Shown here piece by piece: positions 5,505-19,548 of a stretch of DNA of 64,000 bases. The stretch spans positions 124,001 through 188,000 of the forward strand of contig NZ_OBDR01000003.1 in the NCBI RefSeq assembly GCF_900215215.1. Direction: 5' to 3'. The notes under the pieces were generated by a model. It ran no database searches. It saw nothing but the letters and a program-made list of their open reading frames with translations, and was not told the origin of the DNA. The number at the start of each line of letters is the position of its first letter. Position 1 is the first letter of the stretch. The DNA comes from Methanohalophilus euhalobius. Its GTDB lineage: Archaea; Halobacteriota; Methanosarcinia; Methanosarcinales; Methanosarcinaceae. A program made the translations under genes and the position numbers.

Positions 5505-6869
5505 TTATACTATCTCAATTCCGCCTTCTTTTATTTCATATTCTTTTATAAGGGGTTCACTGGCGGTTCCCCTTGATTTGATGATCTGGAACTGCCTTTT
5601 CATTCCTTTTTCAGTATCTGTCTGTTTAAGCAGGATTACATTATCCATTATGAAAGATGACTCCTTGCTCCTTATTTTTTCAGCCCCTCCAAAAAGTTCC
5701 GTGGTAAAAAGTGTCGTAACATCATGGCTTTTCAGGTAACCTACAAGGGAATGCAAAAATCCTCTTCTTTTAACAGGATCTATTATTGTGATTTCCACGT
5801 TCACAAGGCCATCTATTAGCAGTCTGGCAGGCTTTTTTTCCTCAACAATATTACTTATACGGTTGGAATATTCTGCATAACAGACGTTTTCGGTATCATA
5901 AGTGATTATACTAAGTTTTTCCTCGTCAATATATGATTGCAGGTCCCAGCCAAGATCCCCTGTGGCTTTTATTATCTGGTCTGCACTTTCGTAAAAGGTG
6001 ATGATAGCACAATTTTCCCCGTTTTCGAGCCCCTGCTGGATAAATTGCCATCCCATTATGGTTTTCCCGGTGCCTGGTTCTCCTCCTACAAGAATAGAAC
6101 TTCCAGCCGGGACACCTCCGTTTAACATTTTGTCAACTTCATCGATGCCAGTGTCAACTTTTTTATCTTCAGGAGCCCGTTCCTCATATTTCAGATTTGG
6201 GTATGCACTGAATCCACGTGTGTTCACCAGATAATTGAATTTCTGGGTCATGCATTCATTACTGTAAGAGGGCTTGACTCCCGTCATCTTGAGGATTTCC
6301 ATCTGGTTGGAGGTCTGCATACCCTGATTGGTTCTGGACAGATAAATTATTCCATCTGCAAGATGGCTGACCACATAATTGTGAATTTCATCTTTCATTA
6401 ACTCGCCTGTCAAAAACACCAGGGAATTGGATTCACGCACCATTGAGTCCAGGGTGTAAAAGAAACGCCTTCTCTCCTGTTCCACAAATCCAAATCCTAT
6501 GGGTGTGATAGGGTCTATTACAAGTCTGTCTGGTTTTGCGGATGATATCGTATTGTCCATTTCGATAAGGGTACTTAGTGGATCCTTTTCTGCAATCGGC
6601 CTGTTAATCTCATGTACTTCCACGGATTCATCCAGAAATTCAAAAGTGGACAGGTACATCTTCAGTCGATCGGAATCTTCCGTTGTAATGGGTATGTACA
6701 GGGTTTTTTCGCCGGCTTTTGCTGCATTTGACAGCATCTGCAGTGCCATAGTTGTCTTACCTACACCAGCTGTCCCCGCAATAAGAATGATCGAAGGGGA
6801 CTTGAAACCACCCACAATTTCGTCCATGCCATCAATATGACAGGGGATTTGCCTCAATTCACTCATCAT
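5505..6869 (-). CDS. two-domain KaiC-type RecA ATPase
   Basis: 454 residues in two tandem RecA-like domains. The first has Walker A GTAGVGKTT near residue 32 and Walker B-like DRLVIDPITP near 114. The second has GEPGTGKT near residue 263 and RLLIDGLVN near 349. This is the KaiC/GvpD-like family, widespread in archaea and usually linked to signalling (taxis, gas vesicles, membrane sensors) rather than to a circadian clock. No kaiA or kaiB is nearby. Two ATGs (6869, 6866) compete and neither has a clear ribosome binding site. It converges with the winged-helix gene, one base apart. Confidence 0.82.
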   Translation of the reverse strand: MMSELRQIPCHIDGMDEIVGGFKSPSIILIAGTAGVGKTTMALQMLSNAAKAGEKTLYIPITTEDSDRLKMYLSTFEFLDESVEVHEINRPIAEKDPLSTLIEMDNTISSAKPDRLVIDPITPIGFGFVEQERRRFFYTLDSMVRESNSLVFLTGELMKDEIHNYVVSHLADGIIYLSRTNQGMQTSNQMEILKMTGVKPSYSNECMTQKFNYLVNTRGFSAYPNLKYEERAPEDKKVDTGIDEVDKMLNGGVPAGSSILVGGEPGTGKTIMGWQFIQQGLENGENCAIITFYESADQIIKATGDLGWDLQSYIDEEKLSIITYDTENVCYAEYSNRISNIVEEKKPARLLIDGLVNVEITIIDPVKRRGFLHSLVGYLKSHDVTTLFTTELFGGAEKIRSKESSFIMDNVILLKQTDTEKGMKRQFQIIKSRGTASEPLIKEYEIKEGGIEIV

Positions 6870-13654: not shown

Positions 13655-15001
13655 TTAAAGTACACCAAGGTAGGTATCCAGTTCCCACTGGTGTACTTGG
13701 GCCTTATAATCATCCCATTCCTTATTCTTGGCACATAGGTAGTTGTTGAAAAGGTGGTCTCCCATGGTCTTTTTAACAAATTCACTGCCTGCCATTTCGT
13801 CTATCGCTTCCTTGAGGCTTCCTGGAAGAGAATTGATCCCCATGCCTTCTCTCTCCTGTCCGGAAAGTTTGAAGATATTGTGGGTTACTGCTTCTCCAGG
13901 GTCGGTTTTGTTCTTGATTCCATCCAGGCCTGCAGAAAGCATGGTTGCAAAGGCAAGATATGGATTACATGCCGGATCAGGACACCTGAGTTCTACCCTT
14001 GTACCCTTGCCCCTGGTTGACGGGATGCGTATCAGGGAACTGCGGTTACTGTCCGACCAGGTTATGTAGATGGGCGCTTCATATCCCGAGACAAGTCTTT
14101 TGTAAGAGTTGACAGTTGGGTTGGTTATTGCCGCGAATTCCCTGATATGTTCCAGCAGTCCGCCGGTGTAATACCTGGCTATGTCGGAGAGTTGGTTTGG
14201 AGTATTCGGATCAAAGAATACGTTTTCGCCATCCTGTGACATCAGGGATTGGTTGGCGTGCATTCCTGAGCCGTTTACACCGTAGAGTGGTTTCGGCATG
14301 AAGGTTGCATAGTAACCGTGGTGGTTTGCTATGGATTTGACCACATACCTGAATGTGATTACATTATCAGCTGTAGTAAGGGCATCCGAGAACCTGAAAT
14401 CGATCTCGTGCTGTGAGGGGGCAACTTCGTGGTGTGATGCCTCGAGCTTGAATCCCATGTGTTCCAGGGCATAGTCAATTTCCCTGCGCACATCCTGGGC
14501 CATGTCAAGGGGTGCAAAGTCGAAGTAACCGCCTTTATCGGTAAGTTCGGTTGTGGGATTGCCTTCACTGTCCAGTTTGAACAGGAAGAATTCAAGTTCC
14601 GGTCCCACATTCATGGAATATCCCATGTCCTGGGCTTCCTTAAGGGTCTTTTTGAGAATGTAACGTGGATCTCCCTCGAAGGGGTTGCCATTCGGCAATT
14701 TTACATCACCTATTATACGCGCAACAGCTCCTTCGGTTGGTCTCCAGGGCAGGATACGGAATGTTGAAGGGTCGGGCATTAGCATCATGTCCGATTCCTC
14801 AATGCGGGTGAATCCTTCGATTGAAGAACCATCGAACATCACTCCTTCATCGAATGCCTCATCCAGGTCTTCGGAAGGAATTGCCCAGCTCTTGATAATT
14901 CCCATTGTGTCGGTGAACTGGGTACGTATAAACTTTACATCATTTTCGACGACCGCTTCAAGTACGTCTTCTTTGGTCTGTATCTCTGGCTTATGTTTCA
15001 T
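13655..15001 (-). CDS. glnA: glutamine synthetase, type I
   Basis: 448 residues, the length of the GSI-alpha class. Active-site blocks are present: FDGSSIEGFTRI, GPELEFFLF, ASHHEVAPSQHEIDFRF, the glutamate-binding NGSGMHANQS, RIPSTRGKGTRVELRCPDPACNPYLAF and the C-terminal YLGVL. It makes glutamine from glutamate, ammonia and ATP, the main ammonia-assimilation step, and feeds the glutamate synthase downstream. GGGTGA five bases before the ATG at 15001 selects it over the GTG at 15010. A TATA box and an inverted repeat at 15027-15038 lie upstream. The 5' end is duplicated, broken, at 16715-16833. Confidence 0.97.
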   Translation of the reverse strand: MKHKPEIQTKEDVLEAVVENDVKFIRTQFTDTMGIIKSWAIPSEDLDEAFDEGVMFDGSSIEGFTRIEESDMMLMPDPSTFRILPWRPTEGAVARIIGDVKLPNGNPFEGDPRYILKKTLKEAQDMGYSMNVGPELEFFLFKLDSEGNPTTELTDKGGYFDFAPLDMAQDVRREIDYALEHMGFKLEASHHEVAPSQHEIDFRFSDALTTADNVITFRYVVKSIANHHGYYATFMPKPLYGVNGSGMHANQSLMSQDGENVFFDPNTPNQLSDIARYYTGGLLEHIREFAAITNPTVNSYKRLVSGYEAPIYITWSDSNRSSLIRIPSTRGKGTRVELRCPDPACNPYLAFATMLSAGLDGIKNKTDPGEAVTHNIFKLSGQEREGMGINSLPGSLKEAIDEMAGSEFVKKTMGDHLFNNYLCAKNKEWDDYKAQVHQWELDTYLGVL

Positions 15002-15026
15002 TTCTCTCACCCTTCACAGGAATGCA

Positions 15027-15038
15027 GTAACCACTTAC
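15027..15038. promoter_or_regulatory. inverted repeat in the glnA promoter, candidate nitrogen-regulator operator
   Basis: GTAA, CCAC, TTAC just downstream of the glnA TATA box. The nitrogen repressor NrpR binds GGTAA-N6-TTACC-like sites in Methanosarcina; this repeat has similar half-sites but a shorter spacer, so the assignment is tentative. Confidence 0.35.
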
Positions 15039-15043
15039 CGTAT

Positions 15044-15058
15044 TACTTATATATAAAG
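15044..15058 (-). promoter_or_regulatory. TATA element of glnA
   Basis: Reads CTTTATATATAAGT on the minus strand, about 45 bases before the glnA start codon, predicting a leader of about 20 bases carrying GGGTGA. Confidence 0.6.
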
Positions 15059-15174
15059 ATAACTACTGCATGCAAACAAATATAAAAAAAATATTTAAGC
15101 AATCTCATTTCATATAGATAGGGGGTACCAGGAAAACGGTCAGATTATATGAGTTTGATTCTTGGTAGAAAACT

Positions 15175-16638
15175 ATGGATTATTCATCAAAAGCACAGAC
15201 TGAAGAAATGGCATCTCTTGTAGAAACATGGTTAGGTAATCCTGCCACACGCAAAGTTCTCAGCAAGGTCGTTGCCGGATCTGATGGCATGCAGCGAATG
15301 GAAAGAATCCTGAAATCTTACGGGTGGGATACGGAGGATGATCTTGGCCTGAAGGACCGAATTGTCGGCAAAACGGTTAGAAGTATAATTGGACAGGTTG
15401 CCAATAAAACCGGCATCACAGAGGATGATATAAAGTCCAATATGAAGGTGGGTTACTGGCGCAAAGGGCTTGTCTCGACTCTGGCAGGTATTGGTTTGTG
15501 GGGTCCACAAAAGCCCTTCACTTCTTATGCACCCTTCCTGGTCGTCTGGAACTCTACCAATGCATGCAACCTTCATTGCAGACACTGTTACCAGAGTGCC
15601 ATTAGCAGGCCCACACCGGATGAATTGAACACAGCTGAAAGGGTCAAAGTTGTGGACAGACTGGCAGATGAAGGGGTTGCCTATATCTCCCTGTCAGGGG
15701 GAGAGCCTCTTATGCGGAATGATTTTTTTGAAGTGGCTGCAAGAATATGCCAGAGGGATATGGGACTGGCTCTTGCGACCAACGGTACAATGCTAACGGC
15801 TGCACGGGCAAAGCGACTGGCAGATCTTGGTTGTTCCTTTGTCCAGATCTCTCTGGACGGTACCAGGCAAACTCATGATAATTTCCGTGGACTGGATGGA
15901 GCCTTCGATAAGACCCTGGAGGGTATCAAAAATGCAGTGGATGCGGGCCTGAACACTGAAGTAGCGATGACAGTAACCTCCCAAAACCTCGATGAGGTAA
16001 GTGAAGTGATTGATATCACTGAATCACTGGGTGCCGGCACCTTTATGCACTACAATTTCATCCCTGCCGGAAGAGGAAAGGAGATTATGAACAAGGATCT
16101 TTCTCCTCAGCAGCGTGAATCCCTTCTTGAGGAACTGGCCACAGAGGGGGAGAGAAGAAATATCAATGTACTTTCCACGGCTCCTCAGTTTTCACGGGTC
16201 TGCATGGGTGGGAGACATTCAATATCTTCATTGACCCACTTTGATTCGATCGGACAGAATAAACAATTGGCAGACAAAGTTGAATTTCTTGCGGAGTTTG
16301 TGGGAGGCTGCGGAGCTGGCCGTCTGTACTGCGGCCTCCAGCCAAACGGGGATATAATTCCATGTGTGTTCCTGCCAAAAACACTGGCAAACATCAGGTA
16401 CAACAACCTTGTAGATGTGTGGCAAAACAGTGATTTTCTTGCAAAAATGCGTCAAAGGAATTCCTTTAAAGGGCAGTGTTCTGAATGTGCTTATTTGAAG
16501 GTTTGCGGGGGATGCCGGGCACGTGCATTTGGTTATTTCAATGATGTACAGGGGCCTGACCCCGGCTGTATACGGAATGCCGCTAGCTGGGATGAGCTGG
16601 AAAAGAAAATTGAGCACGATTCTGTACATCCTCTGTGA
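15175..16638 (+). CDS. radical SAM protein with SPASM domain
   Basis: 487 residues. A helical N-terminal region of about 125 residues precedes the radical SAM core, whose cluster motif CNLHCRHC lies near residue 135; SLSGGEPLMR and LATNGTML follow. The C-terminal SPASM region has cysteines in GGCGAGRLYCGLQPNGDIIPCVF and CSECAYLKVCGGCRARAF, which should bind one or two auxiliary 4Fe-4S clusters. Such enzymes modify peptides or mature tetrapyrroles (AhbC/AhbD, NirJ types); the substrate cannot be told here. It is divergent from glnA and has no strong ribosome binding site. Confidence 0.85.
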   Translation: MDYSSKAQTEEMASLVETWLGNPATRKVLSKVVAGSDGMQRMERILKSYGWDTEDDLGLKDRIVGKTVRSIIGQVANKTGITEDDIKSNMKVGYWRKGLVSTLAGIGLWGPQKPFTSYAPFLVVWNSTNACNLHCRHCYQSAISRPTPDELNTAERVKVVDRLADEGVAYISLSGGEPLMRNDFFEVAARICQRDMGLALATNGTMLTAARAKRLADLGCSFVQISLDGTRQTHDNFRGLDGAFDKTLEGIKNAVDAGLNTEVAMTVTSQNLDEVSEVIDITESLGAGTFMHYNFIPAGRGKEIMNKDLSPQQRESLLEELATEGERRNINVLSTAPQFSRVCMGGRHSISSLTHFDSIGQNKQLADKVEFLAEFVGGCGAGRLYCGLQPNGDIIPCVFLPKTLANIRYNNLVDVWQNSDFLAKMRQRNSFKGQCSECAYLKVCGGCRARAFGYFNDVQGPDPGCIRNAASWDELEKKIEHDSVHPL

Positions 16639-16662
16639 AAACAGTCGTTGTCGTTTGCCTCA

Positions 16663-16711
16663 TCTTTATAACAAATGAAAATTTACTTGCAGGTAGGTGA
16701 ATATAATCATG
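16663..16711 (+). promoter_or_regulatory. orphan promoter, ribosome binding site and start codon
   Basis: TATA-like TCTTTATAAC at 16663, a good Shine-Dalgarno AGGTAGGTGA at 16691-16700 and an ATG at 16709 are arranged as for a real gene, but the copied glnA fragment begins a few bases after the ATG. The frame then reads through the inverse of glnA and makes no recognisable protein. It looks like the 5' end of a lost gene. Confidence 0.4.
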
Positions 16712-16714
16712 GCA

Positions 16715-16833
16715 AACTGGGTACGTATAAATTTTACATCATTTTCGACGACCACTTCAAGTAGTCTTCTTTGGTCTGTATCTTTGGCTTATGTTTCATT
16801 TCCCTCACCCTTCACAGGAATGCAGTAACCACA
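16715..16833 (-). pseudogene. broken duplicate of the glnA 5' end and leader
   Basis: About 120 bases nearly identical to 14916-15034, covering the first 28 or so codons of glnA, its ribosome binding site and leader. There are a handful of substitutions and one deleted base (CAAGTA-GTC against CAAGTACGTC) that breaks the frame. Similarity fades in the promoter, where the copy still has a TATATAAG element at about 16849. The copy has the same orientation as glnA and lies about 1.8 kb upstream of it, beyond the radical SAM gene. It cannot encode a functional enzyme. Confidence 0.85.
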
Positions 16834-17014
16834 TACCTTGTTAGTAGTATATAAGACATTCTGTAACGATGGGCTTGACCATAAAGTCCACTACATTGTG
16901 GTCAATGGGATACATAATAGTTAAAAGGTCTACTTTATGGTCAAAACATTAACTCGGAAAACGCTTGCTTGTAATATGATAGGCAAAAATCAGGGAGTGA
17001 TAAATTACAATATT

Positions 17015-17783
17015 AAGAGACTGTCGGATAATAGATAAAAAAGATCCCCTTTACTTCATTAAAGAGCAAATTTAAGGCTTAAATTCATTTTTTTGAGAAA
17101 TTATCATCTATTTGTTTGACATATTTTCAATCCAGCTTCTTTCAATCCTTTTTTAAGCCTCAACTCTTTCATCCCTTCTATCTTTAACATATATCCCCAC
17201 TCATTTTAATAAATCTCTTTAGATTAACTGCAATTCCTGTTAACATTGCCTGGATATTCATCTTCTCTTTCCCCCAGAACTTTGCTCTTTTCAGCCCATG
17301 AAATCTCTTCATCTCTCCCTGTTTTGGTTCGATATGTGCCCTCATTTTCATATCCCGTTTAAAATCTCGAGATTTACTGTATCTTTTAGCCTCTTCTAAA
17401 AAGGTATTGATTCTAAAAAGGTATTGAACTACTGCAGACCGTAGCATCATTTCAGGTGTGTTGGTTACAGGACGACCTTTGTTTGAACAATAGAGTTTTT
17501 CACATGTTACATTGATGAACGAGAAATCAACATTTTCATTGATCTTATAAAGCAAATGGTTTTTGAGTATCAATTCGTAGACATCAGGACCATACACGAA
17601 TGTTGTTTGCTTGGGTTTTGAACAGAATACATTTTAATCACGATAGAGTTAATTATTTCAGTTGATTATGGTTATATGATATAAATGTATCTCTTGATTG
17701 TGATTATGCGGTAGAATATGAGTATATACAATAGAAACTGTATGATATGTGTCTGTAAGTAGTAGACTTTTCCGACAGCCTCT
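17015..17783. mobile_element. internally deleted IS1182-like insertion sequence
   Basis: Ends AGAGACTGTCGGATAA (17015-17030) and, inverted, AGAGGCTGTCGGAAAA (17768-17783) match at 14 of 16 bases. The element is about 770 bp against 1.5-1.8 kb for full-length relatives, and its single ORF lacks the catalytic core. No clear target duplication is seen. The sequence outside the ORF (17031-17183 and 17598-17767) is AT-rich with no other gene. The deletion junction carries a direct repeat (TTCTAAAAAGGTATTGA twice, about 17393-17427). Confidence 0.75.
17184..17597 (-). pseudogene. IS1182-like transposase, in-frame internal deletion
   Basis: 137 residues joining a transposase N-terminus (MYGPDVYELILKNHLLYK ... 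GRPVTNTPEMMLRSAVVQYLF) to a C-terminus (RDFKRDMKMRAHIEPKQGEMKRFHGLKRAKFWGKEKMNIQAMLTGIAVNLKRF). The central DDE domain with the catalytic aspartates is missing, so it cannot transpose. The frame stays open across the junction, so a short protein could still be made; whether it is expressed is unknown. Confidence 0.8.
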
Positions 17784-17992
17784 ACAAATTCCATTCAAAA
17801 TTTATAAAAAGATTTTGTATATTGATATATTTCCTCACTCATAAAATAATAAATAAGTTACGCTCATGCAATGCCTGGTGATAATGAATAAATAGTTACG
17901 CTTTTAAAATGAAAAACTAATTTGATGGTCTCAGTTTCAACAGAGCAATCAATTGATAAGATATTAATATTATTGAATTTCATGGTAAAGGC

Positions 17993-18451
17993 ATGCCAGA
18001 AGAAGACGAAACCTGCCAGGTGAATGTAAAGGGGGTTTACCTCATGAAAATGGAAGAGGGAATAGCGCCAACTGTCATCCTGGAAGATCCGGCCGGAAAA
18101 ATAATGCCGATTTATATTGGGCATCTGGAAGCCCTGTCCATAAATAATGCATTAAACAGTGAGACCACACCTCGTCCAATGACCCACGACCTTTTAATGT
18201 CCATCCTCTCAAGAATGGAAGGCAAAGTTGAAAGCGTATTGATTGATGAAAAGACAGAAGGAGTATTTTTCGCCCGTCTGACTTTGAGCAAAAACGATGT
18301 TAAAATGGAATTCGATGCAAGACCCAGTGATTGCATCGCCCTTGCTCTGAGAGCAGATGTTCCAATCAATATCAAATATGAAATTCTGGAAAATGACATC
18401 ATAAGTCCCGAAAAACTGGACGGTGCGAAATCATTCGAATCTCTCCTTTAA
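17993..18451 (+). CDS. bifunctional nuclease family protein (DUF151)
   Basis: 152 residues of the BFN/DUF151 family. The conserved features are the acidic and histidine-containing IGHLEALSINNAL near residue 41, RPMTHDLLMSIL near 60 and FDARPSDCIALALRADVPI near 104. Plant members have DNase/RNase activity and bacterial ones are uncharacterised. The ATG at 17993 has AAAGG directly upstream, closer than usual, so the start is a little uncertain. An AT-rich region with no gene precedes it (17784-17992). It converges with dinB. Confidence 0.85.
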   Translation: MPEEDETCQVNVKGVYLMKMEEGIAPTVILEDPAGKIMPIYIGHLEALSINNALNSETTPRPMTHDLLMSILSRMEGKVESVLIDEKTEGVFFARLTLSKNDVKMEFDARPSDCIALALRADVPINIKYEILENDIISPEKLDGAKSFESLL

Positions 18452-18456
18452 CCGGC

Positions 18457-19548
18457 TCAAAAGTAAGAAGCAAGCGTTGTCTGAGACGATATTTCCTGTA
18501 ACCCGGCAACTCTAACTCCAATCCGGCGAATGGTAGGTTTGTTTTCTTCAAGGAAGGTTGTTAGCAATTTGTCCAGATGTTGTCTCAGAATTTCTTTTTC
18601 AGCAACCGCTCTCTGGAGGGTATGGTTACGAGTTTGGGTTTTGAAATCAGATGTGATCATGATCAGTGTAACCTGACGGAAAGAAACACTTCTTTCGATA
18701 GTCTTTTTAATCACATCCTCGGCAAGGTTATCCAGAACTGGCATTATCAAATCGTAATCCGATGAATTTTCCGGCAAAGTGGCTATCCTCCCAATTTGCT
18801 CACTTCCTTCCCTTTGCCTGACAGGAGACTCATCAATCCCCTGTGCAGCCTTTTTGAGCCATGAACCTTTCTTTTTACCAAAAGCATCTATGAGAGACAC
18901 AATGTCCGAAGAAGCAAGTTGTCCCACTGATTTTATGCCCATTTTTTCAAGCCTGGCGGCTGTGACATCCCCTACACCCCAGAGTTGAGAGGGAGCACGA
19001 TTCGCCAGAAATTGATTTACATCATGTTGTGGGATGACAGTAAGTCCATCGGGTTTATTTTCTGAGGATGCCATTTTGGCAATGAGTTTGTTGGGCCCGA
19101 GCCCCACAGAACATGTCAGCTGTTCTTTTTCCAGAATCTTTTGCTTAATATCTTCACCCAGTTTACGGGCACATTCAAAATCACCGTTGCATTTTGCCGT
19201 AACTTCGATGAATGCCTCATCTATACTTATCTGCTCAAAGGATTCATCATTATCTGCATGAGAGCGCAGTATTTCCATGATACTGTCAGAAACTTCAGTG
19301 TAAAACTCTTTTCTTACAGGAAGAAAAACCGCATCCTGATTCAGTTTAATGGCTCTGGAACAGGGCATACCGGATTTAATACCGTATTCGCGGGCTGTAT
19401 AATTGGAGGTGCTTACCGAGCCCCCGTGCTCCCCTCTCCCCGAATACATACAGACCACCACAGGCCTGCCTATAAGGGAAGGGTCTTCACGCTCCTCAAC
19501 AGCAGCATAAAAGTAGTCCATGTCCACATGGACAACAATACGTGACAT
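18457..19548 (-). CDS. dinB: DNA polymerase IV (Y-family, DinB/Dpo4)
   Basis: 363 residues with Y-family catalytic motifs HVDMDYFYAAVEE at the start and SIDEAFIEV near residue 105, which supply the metal-binding Asp and Glu. The little finger domain occupies the last 110 residues. It copies past damaged bases with low fidelity. The C-terminus ends TTLASYF, resembling a PCNA-interacting peptide (QTTLASYF), as expected of an archaeal translesion polymerase. It is transcribed alone, 100 bases from nth. Confidence 0.94.
   Translation of the reverse strand: MSRIVVHVDMDYFYAAVEEREDPSLIGRPVVVCMYSGRGEHGGSVSTSNYTAREYGIKSGMPCSRAIKLNQDAVFLPVRKEFYTEVSDSIMEILRSHADNDESFEQISIDEAFIEVTAKCNGDFECARKLGEDIKQKILEKEQLTCSVGLGPNKLIAKMASSENKPDGLTVIPQHDVNQFLANRAPSQLWGVGDVTAARLEKMGIKSVGQLASSDIVSLIDAFGKKKGSWLKKAAQGIDESPVRQREGSEQIGRIATLPENSSDYDLIMPVLDNLAEDVIKKTIERSVSFRQVTLIMITSDFKTQTRNHTLQRAVAEKEILRQHLDKLLTTFLEENKPTIRRIGVRVAGLQEISSQTTLASYF

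Follow-up and report, generated by a model that had tools for sequence, protein, structure and literature searches.

Insertion sequences have been associated with large rearrangements in bacteria, both deletions and duplications (PMC11708052, in the part of that report available to us), and homology-facilitated illegitimate recombination has likewise been described for bacteria, as far as the available part of the source extends (PMC3240628). Titles and the opening lines of abstracts yielded no report of an inversion in a Methanohalophilus genome like the one considered below, which does not prove that none exists; nor did any paper among the matches listed deal with inversion breakpoints that carry orphan or duplicated promoters, and their absence from print is likewise unproven. 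Here we describe a locus in a stretch of 64,000 nucleotides (the window) from the Methanohalophilus euhalobius genome G000, compared within a set of eight Methanohalophilus genomes (G000 to G007). We consider it likely that this locus is a rearrangement scar without selected function, built up by transposon insertion, rearrangement and allele entry. The scar itself is very likely, and the order of events only moderately so.

The block at 16656–16714 of the window, on the plus strand, is the promoter, Shine-Dalgarno sequence and first two codons of hdrC, the gene for subunit C of the CoB-CoM heterodisulfide reductase. The initial annotation had described a plus-strand TATA element, a Shine-Dalgarno sequence and a start codon running into a copy of the glnA 5' end, and reading of the sequence confirmed each of them, with TATA-like TTTATAAC at 16665–16672, Shine-Dalgarno AGGTAGGTGA at 16691–16700 and ATG at 16709–16711. 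A similarity search of G000 recovered the block at G000:C4:22622–22680, upstream of an intact hdrC, with one difference in 59 bp (98%, E 7.3e-23). Among 60 genomes, including G000, strong matches (E 4e-16 or better) were obtained in G001, G003, G004, G006 and G007. In all five, that is, in five of the seven other genomes of the genus, the block runs into an ORF of 161–162 residues; of the remaining two, G005 gave no match and G002 matched only at E 0.99 and with a different part of the query. The alignment with relatives that had been proposed as a way of finding the missing gene thus identifies it as hdrC. At 16702 the orphan block has T, as do the C4 copy, G003 and G007, versus C in G001, G004 and G006. 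By translation, a 39-codon ORF (16709–16828, plus strand) leads from the orphan hdrC ATG into antisense glnA sequence. No RNA family reached the Rfam gathering score in 14500–18500 and the block leads into hdrC in five relatives; we therefore take this ORF to be accidental, and on the same grounds we rejected both a structured RNA and a small conserved gene.

The suggestion in the initial annotation that a gene was lost does not hold, as hdrC-hdrB lies intact on contig C4 of G000 with its own complete copy of the promoter block (58/59). The products score above the NCBIfam equivalog cut-offs for HdrC (TIGR03290, 187.2 bits against 160) and HdrB (TIGR03288, 429.2 bits against 345.15), and the hdrC-hdrB DNA is 90–94% identical to that of the five relatives. 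What differs is the neighbourhood. In G003, G006 and G007 hdrC directly and divergently adjoins glnA, and in G001 the two are separated by a radical SAM gene. In G004 no glnA was present in the 16 kb read around hdrC, and the glnA region matches only a distant paralogue there (66%; the assembly is called 89% complete); at L040:6828–7736, a LolA-like gene and the A end of a transposon stand beside hdrC in the place of glnA. On C4 of G000, the genes upstream of hdrC encode an M23 peptidase and a hydantoinase/oxoprolinase. The M23 gene in turn abuts a gene for a bifunctional nuclease domain protein (BFN; 17993–18451 of the window, plus strand) in four of the eight genomes (G003, G004, G006 and G007); the two sides are apart in G000 and G001, and G002 and G005 match one side only.

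Two ancestral adjacencies, glnA|hdrC and M23|BFN, have thus become two reciprocal new ones in G000, glnA-side|BFN and M23|hdrC, an exchange of neighbours of the kind looked for at an inversion breakpoint. Both G000 junctions lie within contigs (C14, 229 kb; C4, 75 kb), and the DNA of the relatives is collinear on both sides of each junction. The earlier reading of the locus as a recombination scar is supported. Four genomes have both loci on one contig. The relative orientation in G003 would allow a single inversion to give the G000 order; that in G004, G006 and G007 is the opposite, from which a single inversion would not do so. G000 is a draft that is not closed, G001 has the two loci on different contigs, and the glnA and BFN regions of G003 are among those closest to their counterparts in G000. 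If the ancestral order was that of G003, one inversion would account for the large rearrangement.

In G001, an island of ~24.6 kb (G001:C13:68819–93396) separates the M23 and BFN genes, and each of the G000 junctions retains a short end which at this place it has in common with G001. An end of this island occupies 17784–17946 of the window, where the sequence is shared with G001; similarity to G003 and G004 starts at 17947. Within it, 17847–17934 is a dispersed repeat of 80–90 bp with matches elsewhere in G000, G001, G003 and G004. Comparison of the M23-side island remnant (L035:4800–5700) with 16600–18100 of the window gave only the 59-bp block and a 13-base match.

The second component of the junction, at 16715–16854 on the minus strand, is a truncated second glnA 5' end that includes leader, Shine-Dalgarno sequence and TATA element. 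Its counterpart is the 5' end, leader and promoter of the intact glnA (14916–15056, minus strand; the product is a GlnA equivalog above the NCBIfam cut-off), to which it is 92% identical (E 1.2e-52) in the same orientation, so that the two form a direct repeat with a spacing of 1798–1799 bp. Neither this similarity nor that of the orphan block is due to chance. The orientation given in the initial annotation is right and the length of 120 bp is not: the copy measures ~140 bp against its own glnA and 156 bp when the ancestral spacer is included. It does lack one base relative to glnA (aligned to 14965), in keeping with the single deletion noted before, and it has kept the left-pointing TATA element (TATATAAG as read on the plus strand, 16848–16855). 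By sequence, it is also correct that two converging promoters stand here with no intact gene, and that a minus-strand transcript would be sense to the glnA leader.

The origin of this copy is indicated by its flank. Positions 16855–16870 (minus strand) resemble the glnA-hdrC spacer of G003, G006 and G007, rather than the flank of the intact glnA or that in G001, and end in a presumed 9-bp target site (16862–16870). In an alignment of six rows (own glnA, the copy, G001, G003, G006 and G007), the own glnA and the copy differ at five sites over 14916–15034, all of them private to the copy, and share C15012 (found also in G007) and T15023 (found in no other row). Sites in 15035–15057 are mixed. 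Past these sites and the TATA box, the own glnA agrees with G001 at 15060, 15062, 15063, 15065, 15066, 15068, 15070 and 15071; the copy agrees with G003, G006 and G007 at 15060, 15062, 15063, 15066 and 15069, whereas its bases at 15064, 15065 and 15070 are private. The piece at 16715–16870, which still has a transposon end and the ancestral spacer between glnA and hdrC, is probably the original glnA 5' end in its older neighbourhood. The flanks hence argue for the reverse of the capture of glnA DNA that had been proposed; in the present glnA promoter, it is probably the part on the radical-SAM side that is the newcomer.

That side begins with a segment at 15058–16655 (plus strand) which carries a gene with Pfam Radical_SAM and SPASM domains (ORF 15175–16638). 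The segment occurs in two of the eight genomes, G000 and G001, and a similarity search found it only once in G000. The radical SAM gene is ~91–93% identical to that of G001, and its leader 80% over 66 bases. As this DNA identity is no higher than for other genes, any donor was not G001 itself, or entry was not recent. The present glnA promoter is best read as a chimera that switches to a radical-SAM-bearing allele between 15023 and 15058, the interval in which the own glnA shifts from copy-like to G001-like; this joint falls within homologous sequence. At the other joint, 16714/16715, no bases are shared, and by eye only GG is shared two positions away.

To the right of the spacer lies the B end of a transposon with repeat-array ends (16871–17016, plus strand; 73% to B-end regions in G001:C9 and G003:C1). 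The family is found in methanogen relatives, with ends like GGGCTTGCCCATAAAGT and arrays of ~20-bp TTGACCAYAAAG repeats (window 16871–17016; L160–L163, L169 and L170; G001:C9:168742–179768; G003:C1:1130056–1142457). Its ends pair with identical 9-bp flanks (9/9 each) in eight cases, six among 19 scanned loci that had been picked for such ends and two spanning neighbouring loci; no pair was found at nine of the 19, some of which had loose matches only. The cargo is varied, comprising type I restriction-modification, AAA ATPase, NosD beta-helix and RibD/MarR genes. Pfam identifies a type I restriction-modification system in the G001 copy; in the G003 copy, ORFs that look similar were noted by eye. 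One of 15 Pfam-tested proteins from five of the eight elements (those of L162, L169 and L170 being left out) matched a transposase, a DDE transposase beside the B end of the G003 copy. In the window, the glnA copy ends at 16870 in TGTAACGAT, directly followed by the transposon end; on the hdrC side of G004 L040, the homologous 9-mer, compared by eye, reads GGTAGCGAT and follows the opposite transposon end. Of these two copies of the presumed target site, which agree at 7 of 9 positions, only one was found in G000. The arrangement fits a single entry of a transposon into the spacer between glnA and hdrC, with duplication of a 9-bp target whose copies would later have diverged.

An internally deleted IS1182-like element follows at 17017–17783 (minus strand). 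It is 96% and 94% identical to the two ends of an element at G004:C2:426564–428395, relative to which it lacks ~1.07 kb of interior. Its transposase fragment (17184–17597) scores above the Pfam cut-off for DDE_Tnp_1_6, and its best NCBIfam match, IS1182, is below cut-off. A second copy in G000 would have supplied a direct mechanism for inversion; DNA similarity revealed none, the other matches covering only the repeat to the right.

These observations can be ordered in three steps. A cargo transposon would first have entered the glnA-hdrC spacer; a large rearrangement, an inversion if the ancestral order was that of G003, would then have parted hdrC from glnA; and finally a G001-type allele, bearing the radical SAM gene and the hdrC promoter, would have come in, joined on one side by homologous crossover upstream of glnA (between 15023 and 15058) and on the other by an illegitimate joint within glnA, at 16714/16715. 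The allele would thereby have doubled the 5' end of glnA, and the copy would then have decayed. This scenario explains both duplications with the fewest assumptions we found. Allele entry is its weakest step, since the orphan block is no closer to G001 than to C4 and the radical SAM identity reaches only ~91–93%; with T at 16702, unlike G001, the block singles out no G001-like donor. The orientation in G004, G006 and G007, the mixed sites at 15035–15057, the private bases of the copy in the spacer and the two mismatches between the presumed target-site copies likewise weigh against the scenario. A further deletion is also needed at the C4 junction, where the transposon end is missing and almost none of the glnA-hdrC spacer is left. 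The hdrC unit there retains four bases of the ancestral spacer, its match to G003 and G004 beginning at L035:5619 and that to G001 only at 5623.

A donor strain could be dispensed with if a single rearrangement with staggered or copied ends had doubled the hdrC promoter at both breakpoints, the glnA piece being repair filler. The 59-bp block with its one difference is indeed present at both junctions. Filler taken from the present glnA, however, would not bring along an ancestral-type spacer and a transposon end, and both flanks of the glnA copy would need separate explanations, which makes this account unlikely. The direct repeat and its spacing might also suggest a tandem duplication of 14916–16714 in which the second radical SAM copy was later lost. 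Past the TATA box, however, the copy enters the ancestral-type spacer rather than the radical SAM leader, and the radical SAM segment matches only once in G000; we set this explanation aside on account of the spacer and regard it as highly improbable. An assembly artefact, which a draft of 27 contigs might bring to mind, is less credible still: misassembly is not expected to produce matching junctions on two contigs, or private mutations in the copy and a spacer missing from the present glnA.

A different question is whether the stub has been put to use. Any plus-strand RNA initiated at the orphan promoter would be antisense to the 5' end of the glnA mRNA, a point absent from the initial annotation, and the promoter might have been retained to make such an RNA, or the copy's promoter to act as a repressor decoy. 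Consistent with retention, the promoter block differs from the C4 copy at a single base, and the predicted duplex with the glnA mRNA 5' end has an energy of −190.6 kcal/mol, compared with a mean of −50.7 and a minimum of −69.1 kcal/mol for 193 random 180-mers of the window. Both glnA promoters, that of the copy included, have the motif GGTA-N6-TAC, which we take to resemble an NrpR operator, and G000 has two genes with NRD1_2, presumably the NrpR domain. NrpR binds glnA promoter regions (PMC9765008, in the part available to us). Complementarity, on the other hand, is automatic for any copy with 92% identity, the arrangement is seen in one genome only, and the copy has private changes, a deletion among them. 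No sign of selection on the stub was found, the single genome permitting no real test. We accordingly give retention for antisense or decoy function very little weight, and consider it just as improbable that a trans-acting antisense RNA against the region of the glnA start is expressed from the displaced hdrC promoter, perhaps with a new peptide of 39 residues. Were this the case, nitrogen assimilation would be tied to a methanogenesis promoter by a regulator born from a rearrangement; a stub that is transcribed would exemplify how a breakpoint can give rise to antisense RNA in nature.

The locus is most likely a well-preserved but ordinary genome scar. As such it indicates that an operon of central energy metabolism can be separated from its neighbours together with a complete promoter and still leave a promoter stub in place. 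The locus also preserves, for a methanogen genus, the successive layers left by transposon insertion, rearrangement and allele exchange, and the stub should not be annotated as a gene. Compared with homology-facilitated illegitimate recombination in bacteria, as presented in the available part of PMC3240628, the resemblance lies in one homologous end and one end without homology, and the difference in that the event is here inferred in an archaeon, from sequence only. Like the IS-associated rearrangements in the available part of PMC11708052, the locus has mobile-element remnants at a large-rearrangement junction. Unlike those bacterial cases, it is archaeal, the rearrangement exchanged neighbours reciprocally, and the junction also holds a truncated housekeeping gene and a second promoter allele that looks imported.
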